A DNA stretch of 27,278 bases, from positions 1 through 27,278 of the IMG/VR virus record IMGVR_UViG_3300019776_000639; one strand, written 5' to 3'. The DNA is from a virus. Below the pieces are notes generated by a model. It made no database searches. It worked only from the letters and a program-made list of their open reading frames with translations, and was not told where the DNA came from. The position numbers and the translations under genes were made by a program. Positions 11,815 to 26,506 of the stretch are shown piece by piece. The stretch's first letter is position 1. Every line of letters starts with the position of its first letter.

Positions 11815-12951
11815 CTAGCGCCGGGTTGTGGAACCCTCTTTGGCGAAGAGATTCTCGTTTTTCAGGGCACTGAGCGAAAGGCCGGACTTTGGCGTTGCGG
11901 GTGCTCCGCCTCCGCCTCGTGTGCTCAGGGGTGGGGGAGCGGCCTCCCCCTTCTTCAGCCGGGTGAGCGCGGTGGTCTGCCCGTGCTGGAAGGCCTTCTT
12001 CTGAACGGCCTTGATTCCGTCCTCGAAAGCCTTGGCGTAGTCGGCAAACGGGCCGATGTTCTCCGCGCCGTAGGCCAGGCTTGCCGCCCGGTGGGTATCG
12101 ACGAGGAAGTCAGCGAACCGGTAGCCATCGGGGCCGATCTCCACCGCCATGGTCGGGTTTGCCGCTGTCAGCGCAGTGCTGACCTCGGTGTATCCGCGCT
12201 CCATAGCCGACATTGCCTCTTGCTGGCGCAGGACCTGGGCACGAGACTCCTCCAGCCGCTGGTTTACCTGTGCGTCCCACCGTAGAAGGTCCGCCTCGGT
12301 CTTGGCATCGACAAGGGCCTCTCGGTCTTCGTCGTCCAGGTGGCTGAACTGCTCCTCGTAGGCTTCCCGTTGGGCGGCCTCGTAGCTGGCCCTGTCTGCC
12401 GCAAGCTGGGCTTCCTGGTCGGCAAGCGCTTGGACCTGGGCCTCTTGGGTCTGCTTTGCGGTGAGCTCGGCTATCTGCGCCTGAAGCGCCTCTAGCTGGG
12501 CCTGAACTGCGGCAGGAACCTCGGGCGCAGGCTCGGTGGCAGGCTCTGGAGTCGCCACGGGTGCGGCTGCTCCAAGAAGCTCCTCCACGCTCATCCCCAG
12601 GTCCTTAGCGATCTGAGCAAGCTCAGGGTCGGCAGGGTTTAGGGGCGTGGCGTCGGTGGCGTCGATCTCGGGGTCAGGCGTCTCGTCCTCAAGCGGGACG
12701 ATATCCCTCCCAAGGTACTTGGCAAAGGGAGATTCCTCGCCGACATTGACGGCATCCGGCGCGAAATCCCGGTCGGCCTCGTGTGGGAGAAGGTCGTCGT
12801 TCTTGGACTTGATCGCCGAGAGGTCGAAGGGTTCGTTGCCAATGATGGCATCGACATCGACCGTAGGCTGGCCTGTTGGGGCCTCAGGGGTCATGTCTAG
12901 CTCTTCGGTCTCGGTGGTCTCGGCGGGGGCCTGTGCTGCTCGTGCTGCCAT
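11815..12951 (-). CDS. Capsid scaffolding protein
   Basis: This 378-residue protein is acidic, contains no Cys and is very rich in Ala, Glu and Gln. The N-terminal third is disordered and Pro/Asp-rich. Residues about 145-245 form a long coiled coil (AAVQAQLEALQAQIAELTAK, AQVQALADQEAQLAADRASY). A more ordered region (DGYRFADFLVDTHRAASLAYG) and a basic tail with LKKGE and AKEGSTTRR follow, like the coat-binding end of P22-type scaffolds. It lies between the portal and capsid genes. GAGG is 8 nt before the ATG. An 11-bp inverted repeat sits just upstream of that site. Confidence 0.8.
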   Translation of the reverse strand: MAARAAQAPAETTETEELDMTPEAPTGQPTVDVDAIIGNEPFDLSAIKSKNDDLLPHEADRDFAPDAVNVGEESPFAKYLGRDIVPLEDETPDPEIDATDATPLNPADPELAQIAKDLGMSVEELLGAAAPVATPEPATEPAPEVPAAVQAQLEALQAQIAELTAKQTQEAQVQALADQEAQLAADRASYEAAQREAYEEQFSHLDDEDREALVDAKTEADLLRWDAQVNQRLEESRAQVLRQQEAMSAMERGYTEVSTALTAANPTMAVEIGPDGYRFADFLVDTHRAASLAYGAENIGPFADYAKAFEDGIKAVQKKAFQHGQTTALTRLKKGEAAPPPLSTRGGGGAPATPKSGLSLSALKNENLFAKEGSTTRR

Positions 12952-23577: not shown

Positions 23578-23960
23578 TCTGCTCCTTGCTCCTCGGCTTC
23601 TTGTTCCGGGAAAGCCATCCGGTAAATTCCCATGAGGTAGGTGATCCAGGCGTACATGTCCTGATCCACCAGAGGAGACCGCCCCGCGTAGCGCATCAGG
23701 TAGGCCGAGCAGTTGCAGTGCCAAGCCTCATTCGAGTCTGCCCCGTGGCGCTCCCACGCCTCAACGCAAGCCCTGGCTATTGCCTCGCTCATGGGGTGCG
23801 TCCAGTCCGTATTAGCCCCCTCGCGGATAAAGCGCTCCTCGGCCTTGAGCATCCCGCCAAGAATGGCGTACTCGGCAAAGATGCGCTTGGCATCGTCGAG
23901 CTCCTGCATGACCGGGAACTCCAGCAAGAGGGGAGTCAGTGCCCCTGGGTTAGTGACCAT
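23574..23960 (-). CDS. Hypothetical protein between helicase and exonuclease
   Basis: The ATG at 23960, with GGAGG 6 nt upstream, lies inside the last codons of the helicase gene and gives 128 residues. The protein is helical with Cys near the centre (WHCNCSAYLMRYAGRSPLVD) and an aromatic C-terminal helix (DMYAWITYLMGIYRMAFPEQ). The acidic end, EQEAEEQGAE, is typical of small phage proteins. Function is unknown; context suggests DNA replication or its regulation. Confidence 0.65.
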   Translation of the reverse strand: MVTNPGALTPLLLEFPVMQELDDAKRIFAEYAILGGMLKAEERFIREGANTDWTHPMSEAIARACVEAWERHGADSNEAWHCNCSAYLMRYAGRSPLVDQDMYAWITYLMGIYRMAFPEQEAEEQGAE

Positions 23961-25281
23961 CGGTATCCTCCATGTCTTCAAAGCGGGTGTAGGGGCCAAA
24001 GTAGGCGACCTTGGCAGTAGCGGGTTCTCCGTCGCGGCACTTGAGCACGATCCACTCGGCGGGCTCTCCTCCGGTCTGGGGCTGGGATTCTTGGGGTTGG
24101 TAGTAGCACGGGCGATAAAGCCCGGTCACCACGTCGGCGGCTTCCTCTATCCCGCCTGACTCCTTGAGGTCCGAGAGCATCGGGCGCTTGTTCTCGCGCC
24201 CTTCCACCCCTCGGCTGATCTGCGCCAGTGCGACAATGGGCACATCGAGCTGCTTGGCGGCGGCCTTGAGCCCGTTGGCGATCAGGGATATCTCCTCGGC
24301 GCGGGTCCCGGCCTTGCGCTGGCTGTCGGGCCGCATGATCCCGATGTAGTCCACAAAGACCATATCCAGCCCGCCGAGGTCCGTGCGAATGCGTCGGCAT
24401 CGAGAAACGATCTGAGGCAAAGACAGCGCCGTGGTATCGTCGATCACGAGCTTGTACTGCGAAATTGCGCGCCCGACCTCGGGCAGAATCCGCGACTCTT
24501 CCGGGGTCAGGTGCCCACTGCGAATGTTGCGAAGCGATATCCCGCCCTCGCCCGCCAGCAAGCGCTCGATCATGCGCTTCTTGGGCATCTCCAGCGAGAA
24601 GAACGCCACGCGAAGCCCTTGGCGACACGCAGCGGCAGCAATCGAGACAGCGGCGGCAGTCTTACCCATCGCAGGACGCCCGGCGAACACGTAGAGGTTT
24701 CCGCGCTCCATGCCCTGGGTGAGGTAGTCCCAGCCCGAGATTCCGCTGGAGATTCCAGGCAGGCCCGTGCGGCGAGATCGCTCCTCCATGTCAGCGAGAA
24801 CCTCGTCCAAGAGCGAGGCGGCCAGGCAGTAGCCATCGCCCCCACGCTGGGCAATGGTCGAGTCCAAGAGAATGCTCTCGGACCGCGCCACAATCTCGTC
24901 CAGTGGCTTCTCTAGGTCTGCGGCTTGCTGGATAATCTCCTGCGCGGCGGAGTTAAGTCGGCGGCGAGTCGAGTGCTCCAGGATCACCCTAGCCTGACTC
25001 ACCACGTTGCCACGCCCCACGCTCGCCTTGATCAGGTCGTGCAGGTAGAGAATCGCCGGGTCATCATTGCCGGTCTCGCGCAGCATCTCAGAGCGCACCG
25101 TCACTAGGTCGATTCCCTCGCCACGCTCCGAGACCGCCACGATGGCCCGGTAAATGCGCTGGTGCTCCAGCCGGTAAAGATCACTCGGCGTGAGAATCGG
25201 CAGGACCTGCTCCGCGGACCACGACGAAAGAAGCATCGAGCCCAGCACGCTCTGCTCGGCAGAAATGTCATGCGGTAGCAT
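23950..25281 (-). CDS. dnaB: Replicative DNA helicase, DnaB family
   Basis: The ATG at 25281 lies inside the last codons of the initiator gene, with GGAGG 5 nt upstream, and gives 443 residues. The N-terminal domain (MLPHDISAEQSVLGSMLLSS, ... YRLEHQRIYRAIVAV) is typical of DnaB. The RecA-like domain has Walker A GRPAMGKT (201-208), MVFVDYIGIM with Asp311 (Walker B), ALAQISR with Gln354 and GRENKRPMLSDLKESGGIEE, the segment with the arginine finger. Helicase unwinding follows loading at the origin, probably by the adjacent initiator. This is a near full-length DnaB (bacterial ones have about 450-470 residues). Confidence 0.93.
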   Translation of the reverse strand: MLPHDISAEQSVLGSMLLSSWSAEQVLPILTPSDLYRLEHQRIYRAIVAVSERGEGIDLVTVRSEMLRETGNDDPAILYLHDLIKASVGRGNVVSQARVILEHSTRRRLNSAAQEIIQQAADLEKPLDEIVARSESILLDSTIAQRGGDGYCLAASLLDEVLADMEERSRRTGLPGISSGISGWDYLTQGMERGNLYVFAGRPAMGKTAAAVSIAAAACRQGLRVAFFSLEMPKKRMIERLLAGEGGISLRNIRSGHLTPEESRILPEVGRAISQYKLVIDDTTALSLPQIVSRCRRIRTDLGGLDMVFVDYIGIMRPDSQRKAGTRAEEISLIANGLKAAAKQLDVPIVALAQISRGVEGRENKRPMLSDLKESGGIEEAADVVTGLYRPCYYQPQESQPQTGGEPAEWIVLKCRDGEPATAKVAYFGPYTRFEDMEDTDGH

Positions 25282-26068
25282 CAGCGCCTCCAATCGGCTC
25301 CGCAAGAGCGCGAGCACGACGGGCTCGCAAGTCGTGAAGGCTAGGGATGGACGGCACAGCCTCTGGTGCCTGCATCTTGGGAATCGGAGCCTGGGGCGCT
25401 TTCTCGCCCTTCTTCCAGCCGCGAAGGATCTCGATGGCGTAGCTAGACAGTGCGACGTGGTTGGGGAATGCTCTGCCTGCCAGTGCTAGGCGAAGGTGCG
25501 CCTCCCACCAGTCAGGGCAGCTCTCTTGCAGGAAGTTCTGGACGTGAAGCGGTAGCGGGTCGTTCTCAGCGAAAGCCTTTCCTGTGGTCGTGGTCGTCTG
25601 GGCTTCTTGCTCCACGGGGGTAAGGGGGATAATCTCTCTTTCTTTCTCTCTTTCTTTCTCTCTGTCGTTACGTTGCGTTACATCTGCGTTACGTTGCGTT
25701 ACACTGGCTTCGGGTTGCGTTTCTTCCTGCTTCTTGGCGTTACGGTAGCGTTGCACTCGCTCCTTAGAATCGTCCTCACGCTTGGGCTGGCGCTTATCCC
25801 AGTTGGAAAGCCTGCCGTCCGCAATGACTCCACGCTCAGAGAGGGCTGTCAGGATGGCCTGTACCTCTTCATCCTCAACACCCATGAAAGCGGCGGCGAC
25901 CTCAATGTCAAAACCCTGCACGCTTCCCCGGTCTTGGTGCTGGCTGGCGTAGTCCAGGAGCATCCAGAACGTCGAGATCACCAGCGCCGGGGACACTTTG
26001 GCCTTGCGTGCTACGACCAGCCATTTAGGGTCAGAAGGAGCTCCGTGGTGGGAGCGAAACCAGTCCAT
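25268..26068 (-). CDS. Replication initiator/helicase-loader-like protein (lambda O-like role)
   Basis: This 266-residue protein starts with MDWFRSHHGAPSDPKWLVVA, followed by KVSPALVISTFWMLLDYASQ and a winged-helix-like segment (FDIEVAAAFMGVEDEEVQAI, LTALSERGVIADGRL), as in phage replication proteins that load DnaB. A low-complexity charged linker (RDREKEREKERE-like, residues about 125-150) contains VTQRN twice. A second domain (PDWWEAHLRLALAGRAFPNH, then HVALSSYAIEILRGWKKGEK) follows. The DNA for the linker carries repeats that look like an origin. Its helicase neighbour is translationally coupled. Role as initiator is inferred from order and domain layout. Confidence 0.7.
   Translation of the reverse strand: MDWFRSHHGAPSDPKWLVVARKAKVSPALVISTFWMLLDYASQHQDRGSVQGFDIEVAAAFMGVEDEEVQAILTALSERGVIADGRLSNWDKRQPKREDDSKERVQRYRNAKKQEETQPEASVTQRNADVTQRNDREKEREKEREIIPLTPVEQEAQTTTTTGKAFAENDPLPLHVQNFLQESCPDWWEAHLRLALAGRAFPNHVALSSYAIEILRGWKKGEKAPQAPIPKMQAPEAVPSIPSLHDLRARRARALAEPIGGADATA
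25633..25663. repeat. 31-bp perfect mirror polypyrimidine/polypurine tract
   Basis: The plus strand carries 31 consecutive pyrimidines. Read backwards the tract is identical to itself about a central C at 25648. Such mirror repeats can fold into intramolecular triplex (H-DNA). It encodes the Arg/Glu/Lys-rich linker of the initiator and lies 3 bp from the iteron-like repeats at 25666. Confidence 0.85.
25666..25755. repeat. Iteron-like direct repeats, candidate replication origin
   Basis: CGTTACGTTGCGTTACA occurs at 25666-25682 and again at 25687-25703, a 21-bp period with a 4-bp spacer. A diverged third copy (CGTTACGGTAGCGTTGCA) lies at 25738-25755. They sit inside the initiator gene next to the mirror tract, much as lambda has its origin within gene O. 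The repeats also encode the VTQRN peptide twice, so coding duplication is an alternative explanation. Confidence 0.55.
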
Positions 26069-26217: not shown

Positions 26218-26248
26218 CTTTCCGGTTGGGGGCGTGTCGTTTGTTCTA

Positions 26249-26292
26249 TGTGTATTATACGTCATGTGTGTATCGTGTACCACTTGTGTATT
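26249..26292. promoter_or_regulatory. Operator-like array: three direct repeats at an 18-bp period
   Basis: TGTGTATT (26249-26256), TGTGTATC (26267-26274) and TGTGTATT (26285-26292) are spaced by exactly 18 bp, so they could lie on nearly the same face of the helix. They lie between the plus-strand ribbon-helix-helix gene and the minus-strand replication genes. The first copy overlaps a minus-strand TATAAT. They are the obvious binding sites for the nearby regulator. Confidence 0.6.
26254..26259 (-). promoter_or_regulatory. -10 box facing the replication operon
   Basis: On the minus strand this hexamer reads TATAAT, a perfect -10 consensus in otherwise GC-rich DNA. No good -35 occurs at 15-19 bp, so it may need an activator. 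It overlaps the first operator-like repeat, so bound regulator would block it. Confidence 0.45.
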
Positions 26293-26329
26293 GACAGCCC
26301 TGTCTGTCATGGCGCACACTGGAGCGGCT

Positions 26330-26506
26330 ATGGAAAGTAAAGAAGAGTTGGTAAGAATCGTGTTCGTGGCAAAGCCCGAGCACCGAAAGCTCCTGCGGCA
26401 AGTCGCTGCCAATCGAGAGAAAGATATGCGGGACCTGCTCGTCGAGGCGATTCTCCGCATGGCCCGCGAAGACGGGTTCCTCAAGGACGGCGAGGATATA
26501 GCCTGA
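26330..26506 (+). CDS. Ribbon-helix-helix (Arc/CopG-like) regulator
   Basis: This 58-residue protein is the only well-supported plus-strand gene. The ATG at 26330 has GGAG 5 nt upstream; an earlier ATG at 26309 lacks a binding site. The sequence fits a ribbon-helix-helix fold: a basic beta strand (VRIVFVAKPEHRKLLRQVAA), then REKDMRDLLVEAILRMARED as the second helix pair. Such proteins bind operators as dimers of dimers. The three direct repeats just upstream are likely targets, giving autorepression and control of the divergent replication genes. A TTGACA at 26291 has no matching -10. The gene ends 10 bp from the converging resolvase stop. Confidence 0.72.
   Translation: MESKEELVRIVFVAKPEHRKLLRQVAANREKDMRDLLVEAILRMAREDGFLKDGEDIA

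Follow-up and report, generated by a model that had tools for sequence, protein, structure and literature searches.

A probable lambda-style replication origin inside the initiator gene of a phage outside the lambda O family

An element in the inter-domain linker of a phage replication initiator gene (25633-25754 within the open reading frame (ORF) 25268-26068) is, with a probability of about 0.88, a replication origin embedded in that gene, a function that we infer from the sequence. It is best read as a lambda-style intragenic iteron origin belonging to a non-lambda initiator family. What we observed directly is the anatomy of the element, its conservation as DNA, the placement of its repeats relative to the adjoining tract and a local dip in duplex stability. 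A search of the open-access literature found no description of the origin of this initiator family.

Genomic setting of the element

We analysed a linear virus record of 27,278 bp (IMGVR_UViG_3300019776_000639, positions 1 to 27,278), referred to here as the window. The original prediction had placed an origin-like cluster inside a replication initiator gene next to DnaB, and both genes are recognized as such, the first by PHROG initiator families and the following ORF as DnaB (table 1). Relatives of the initiator retrieved by tblastn carry the labels replication protein O, replisome organizer or primosomal protein I, while the lambda O family was absent from the Pfam and PHROG matches of the window protein and of 17 aligned relatives. 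A DnaB gene was recognizable nearby in only 17 of the 97 relatives having enough flank, which counts against the origin reading.

The AlphaFold model of the N-terminal domain (mean pLDDT 92.8) is helical, with predicted helix-turn-helix (HTH) helices at residues 55-62 and 66-78 and a short wing. Viral fold matches of this domain include primosomal and replisome-organiser proteins. Because PDB sequence and fold searches matched only weakly (mostly HTH regulators, none below E=0.1), the winged-helix label is a prediction from the model and these weak matches. No GC-skew turn was seen at 25.6 kb in the window, and since the record is a linear fragment, GC skew is uninformative as evidence for an origin.

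Two other ORFs of the window gave matches below the cut-off. A 58-aa ORF (26330-26506, plus strand) weakly resembles ribbon-helix-helix proteins (Antitox_RHH, E 0.007) and is preceded by repeated TGTGTAT-like words at about 26248-26291 (region 26230-26506), which are possibly its operators. Among the head genes, a 378-aa ORF (11815-12951) has a weak match to the MerR DNA-binding domain (E 8e-4), probably by chance.

Table 1. Features of the candidate origin and its surroundings in the window, with iterons in coding-strand order.
Feature	Position	Strand	Remarks
DnaB-type replicative helicase, next gene downstream	23950..25317	-	Pfam DnaB_C E 6.5e-77; PHROG 19 E 4e-104
Replication initiator gene, 266 aa	25268..26068	-	PHROG 21423, 3729, 9474 (replication initiation protein), E 2e-11 to 2e-6
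N-terminal helix-turn-helix / winged-helix domain, about residues 1-115, presumed iteron binder	25724..26068	-	predicted, AlphaFold model
Iteron-like unit GCAACGCTAC, diverged	25745..25754	-	in phase with other units
Iteron-like unit GTAACGCCAA	25734..25743	-	11 bp from preceding unit
Iteron-like unit GAAACGCAAC	25714..25723	-	20 bp from preceding unit; third diverged copy of the original prediction
Iteron GTAACGCAAC	25693..25702	-	21 bp from preceding unit
Iteron GTAACGCAGA	25683..25692	-	10 bp from preceding unit
Iteron GTAACGCAAC, second occurrence	25672..25681	-	11 bp from preceding unit
Last iteron GTAACGACAG	25662..25671	-	10 bp from preceding unit; overlaps tract start
Purine tract AGAGAGAAAGAAAGAGAGAAAGAAAGAGAGA, presumed unwinding element	25633..25663	-	2.6 copies of a 12-bp A/G unit; perfect mirror
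CCCCC-TTA-CCCCC motif after tract	25616..25628	-	in some relatives followed by a G-run able to pair with the motif

Helically phased iterons next to the tract

The repeats had been described as two exact 17-bp copies with a 21-bp period and a third, diverged copy. These positions hold (CGTTACGTTGCGTTACA at 25666-25682 and 25687-25703, diverged copy from 25714), and in no dinucleotide shuffle of the window was the 16-mer matched twice; the gap to the tract is two bases, however, and not three. The underlying unit is also shorter than described. The 17-bp repeat resolves into four contiguous units of 10/11 bp, and three further helically phased units extend the array to 25754, giving seven iterons in the window with the 10-bp coding-strand consensus GTNACGCNNT. 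Units with the coding-strand core GTAACG have their first bases at 25702, 25692, 25681 and 25671, and the diverged units at 25754, 25743 and 25723, so that spacing in the 5'-3' order of the coding strand is 11, 20, 21, 10, 11 and 10 bp. A single helical phase is common to all of them over 83 bp (vector length 0.97 at 10.25 bp and 0.96 at 10.5 bp). The tract starts directly after the last iteron core.

A low-stability purine tract

Viewed from the opposite strand, the tract is a perfect 31-bp homopyrimidine mirror (TCTCTCTTTCTTTCTCTCTTTCTTTCTCTCT, 25633-25663), as originally predicted. Its length is far above chance: a 31-bp homopurine mirror was reached in 0/5000 synonymous resamplings of the ORF (maximum 17) and in 0/5000 permutations of its own codons (maximum 27). 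No other purine or pyrimidine run in the window comes near it in length (31 versus 14), and the 36-bp minimum of duplex stability of the whole 27-kb window coincides with it.

The original prediction had suggested that a triplex-prone tract may here take the place of lambda's AT-rich melting element. Supercoiling would in that case drive the mirror into intramolecular H-DNA, and the origin would open through this extrusion instead of by plain melting. A perfect 31-bp homopurine mirror adjoining the iterons is what such a mechanism calls for, and the homopurine mirrors of relatives are somewhat longer than in synonymous shuffles (median 10 versus 6.6). The mirror is not conserved, however. It reaches at least 20 bp in just 7 of 105 relatives, which rules out a triplex as a conserved or general property, and 31 bp in the window only; T or C interrupts the purine run in most relatives (AGATACAGATAC), and in two relatives the tract words are inverted. 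The perfect symmetry of the window tract is most likely a by-product of its two-letter, 12-bp tandem repeat. Pyrimidine-type triplexes with many C residues moreover require acidic pH. A triplex origin is highly improbable, and as a mechanism of general reach it finds no support here. In this one phage a triplex role is conceivable, though nothing beyond the sequence points to it.

No hairpin or palindrome beyond the tract in the window was stronger than in synonymous shuffles. Hairpins after the tract are enriched in a subset of relatives, with z below -2 in 22/104 against 10/100 for a downstream control. Perfect DNA hairpins above synonymous-shuffle stability lie 20-60 nt after the tract in L003, L004, L038, L054, L055, L069, L133 and others. 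Many post-tract hairpins of relatives carry the loop CTAACG, and they resemble the palindrome beyond the A+T-rich region of lambda.

Conservation of the iteron-tract plan

Searches of viral contigs and bacterial genomes, supplemented by a few named phages, yielded 112 non-redundant genes with the motif W-x-[K/R]RQPK, about 107 of which show the plan of iterons followed by a tract. Aligned on the first AGA of the tract, 105 genes fall into register at once, with an array of xxNACGCxxx units and then words of the AGATAC-, AGATAA-, AGAGG- or AGAGAA-type. The plan occurs, among other named phages, in Escherichia phage Evi, Pseudomonas phage P7869 and Aeromonas phage pAEv1818. Both iterons and tract are absent from Microcystis phage Mwe-JY25. 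The seven genes missed by automatic tract placement were judged by eye. Two of them (L037 and L104) fit the plan. In three others (L005, L046 and L048) the coding strand bears a pyrimidine tract, in L082 the iterons are present but no clear tract follows, and in L049 both parts are missing. Strict strand polarity is therefore not universal, and these exceptions weigh against the origin reading. In L048 (TCTGTATCTGTATCT) and L005 the pyrimidine tract contains the reverse complement of common tract words on the coding strand, which shows that tract and iterons can stand in opposite orientations.

Over its first 30 bp, the tract of relatives is about 53% A and 84% purine, with a GC content of about 0.37 versus about 0.61 for the genes. 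The least stable 36 bp of the ORF coincides with the tract in 100 of 105 genes, and the distance from the last core to the first AGA is 6-8 nt in 79 of 102.

Short direct repeats are arrayed in partition and repressor sites as well, and the element might accordingly be a DNA-binding site of another role, such as an autoregulatory operator or a partition site inside the gene. A low-stability tract at near-constant distance from the array argues against this, being a feature of origins that an operator or centromere would not need. The order of the parts also equals that of lambda ori, for which origin function is proven (PMC5043065, PMC7466680). We therefore regard a role other than replication as very unlikely.

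Several further observations were made among the relatives. The N-terminal domains of L013, L042, L045, L070, L074, L092 and L105 carry extra VTQCNA/VTQCDA-type peptides in loops, which are iteron-like as DNA. The initiator frame is apparently shifted in L039 and cut short in L173 (Escherichia phage 204576), possibly through sequencing errors, and the origin-like DNA is intact in both. Mutual information between the iteron core and initiator residues gave a signal dominated by relatedness.

Selection on the DNA of the linker

The linker is charged and of low complexity, and tandem units of 12 and 21 bp can arise by slippage. On these grounds the repeats could be a feature of the protein only, a disordered linker that grew by slippage and has no role as DNA. 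We compared the relatives with shuffles that keep each protein and the own codons of each gene. In the iteron zone, self-similarity exceeded that of the synonymous shuffles at lag 10 (z=23) and lag 20 (z=19), both of which change the frame. In the tract the excess was found at lag 5 (z=28), lag 10 (z=30), lag 12 (z=19) and lag 3 (z=12.5), with no dominance of a trinucleotide periodicity of the kind known from the DnaA-trio. In control regions of the same ORFs the excess was small at lags 5 and 10 and moderate at in-frame lags, in line with codon clustering.

Because the iterons are spaced 10-11 bp apart, their copies are out of frame, and one DNA word is read as different peptides. Cores stand in more than one frame in 102/102 genes, a count that partly follows from the method because core chains allowed spacings of 9-12 and 20-21 only; the lag spectra are free of this limit. 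Across relatives, all three reading frames are used for the word AGAGAAGAG. For pairs of copies 10 bp apart whose first copy is in frame 0, the variable core base is the silent third base of a Val codon in copy 1 and the first base of an Asn, Asp or His codon in copy 2. Of 68 such pairs, 66 had the same base at the silent position of copy 1 and at the amino-acid-determining position of the out-of-frame copy 2, against 24.6 expected and at most 40 in permutations; GTA accompanied Asn in 31 pairs, GTC His in 19, GTG Asp in 16 and GTG Asn in two. The pairs stem from related genes and are not fully independent, though each of the three bases recurs in many genes.

Codon usage in the tract, delimited for this purpose from the iterons alone, departs strongly from the rest of the same genes. 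Arg is encoded by AGA in 92% of cases versus 5% elsewhere, Asp by GAT in 95 versus 39%, Thr by ACA in 82 versus 16%, Gly by GGA in 81 versus 18% and Ile by ATA in 67 versus 10%. The codon deviation and the covariation of silent with amino-acid-changing sites rule out a repeat of the protein only, and the out-of-frame spacing, the reading of one word in three frames and the inversion of tract words in two relatives also speak against it; this explanation is extremely improbable. DNA-level selection on the element is directly evident. The original prediction had named, as a result that would refute it, relatives whose repeats differ at silent positions while the peptide is kept; the relatives do not behave in this way, and the Val pairs, the lag excess and the AGA usage point the opposite way.

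Other N-terminal domains with other repeats

Two genes (L006 and L007) are related to the window protein in the C-terminal half only, and their N-terminal domains belong to another family. By eye, a (TTCACC)n tract stands in their linkers after other 10-bp repeats (GAATCCCCAA; CGCAATCGCA). Across L006, L007 and L151-L168, which have an unrelated N-terminal domain, by-eye reading found 10-bp repeats together with tandem words of the types (TTCACC)n, GGGAA/GGAAG and (AATCCAAG)n. In lambdoid O genes the N-terminal domain is known to travel with its own binding sites, and our reading by eye fits such behaviour here.

It is conceivable, though we hold it only tentatively and with more doubt than belief, that several unrelated N-terminal initiator families each pair, in the linker, a 10-bp iteron with a short tandem tract word of their own, AGANN(N) in the present family and TTCACC, GGGAA/GGAAG or AATCCAAG in others, where a handful of loci were read by eye. 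The word would then be a sequence-specific site for single-strand capture that moves together with the initiator domain, as the phage counterpart to the DnaA-trio. The inverted tract words of L005 and L048 would need explaining under such pairing.

A proposed mechanism and its implications

Returning to the intragenic iteron origin, we propose by analogy with lambda and iteron plasmids how iteron binding, tract melting and helicase loading may proceed. The N-terminal helix-turn-helix domain of the initiator would bind the directly repeated 10-bp iterons once every helical turn, on one face of the DNA, and the array would therefore be head-to-tail and directional. It would stop a few bases short of the strand-asymmetric, low-stability tract, which would melt under negative supercoiling and stay held open. 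The C-terminal half of the initiator may then help to bring the phage DnaB helicase onto the exposed strand.

On this basis a precise origin can be predicted for more than 100 phages and prophages from DNA alone. The arrangement also suggests a rule for finding other origins, namely short out-of-frame repeats followed by a low-complexity linker of rare codons. That the silent base of one repeat copy predicts the amino acid in the next is a clear example of how selection on DNA can write the sequence of a protein. What an unwinding tract requires, whether base composition, strand asymmetry or a specific word, becomes testable.

Comparison with known origins

Like the DnaA-trio of bacterial oriC, the element has short tandem words in its unwinding region next to the duplex sites of the initiator; its tract words are of 5-6 nt rather than 3, have another sequence and involve no DnaA. 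The iterons of theta plasmids are longer, about 20 bp, and normally lie outside the rep gene, whereas the window array lies inside the coding frame. Direct-repeat iterons in helical phase, with an unwinding region next to them, are common to the window element and the iteron origins of theta plasmids such as RK2, R6K, P1 and F (PMC5043065).

The closest likeness is to lambda ori and its Stx-phage relatives. Lambda ori, too, separates the two halves of the initiator gene that contains it (PMC5043065, PMC7466680) and has iterons followed by a purine-asymmetric, low-GC tract on the same strand and in the same order and orientation. The lambda sequence, as we read it, shows within gene O four annotated iterons followed by ACACAAAAGACACTATTACAAAAGAAAAAAGAAAAGATTATT and then by an inverted repeat. 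The likeness to this origin had been part of the original prediction and is borne out, with an iteron array inside the initiator gene and the tract where lambda has its melting element. The contrast that it drew with lambda's melting element is weaker than stated, because the lambda A+T-rich region has an extreme purine asymmetry, with nearly all purines on one strand, in the account of that region given in PMC5043065. This 40-bp region is reported in the literature to open on O binding, and PMC7466680 describes binding of O to its single strands. The window initiator belongs to another sequence family. Lambda iterons are inverted repeats of 18-19 bp that bind dimers, whereas the window units are 10 bp long (G-T-N-A-C-G-C-N-N-T) and have no dyad symmetry; lambda uses protein P, whereas the window phage encodes DnaB next door; and lambda has a palindrome after the tract, which the window lacks and a subset of relatives possesses. 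Because order and orientation are the same while the initiator family differs, the iterons are shorter and non-palindromic and the window has no palindrome, the element would be a variant of the lambda-type origin. To the extent that anatomy is a guide, it works like lambda ori, outside the lambda O family.
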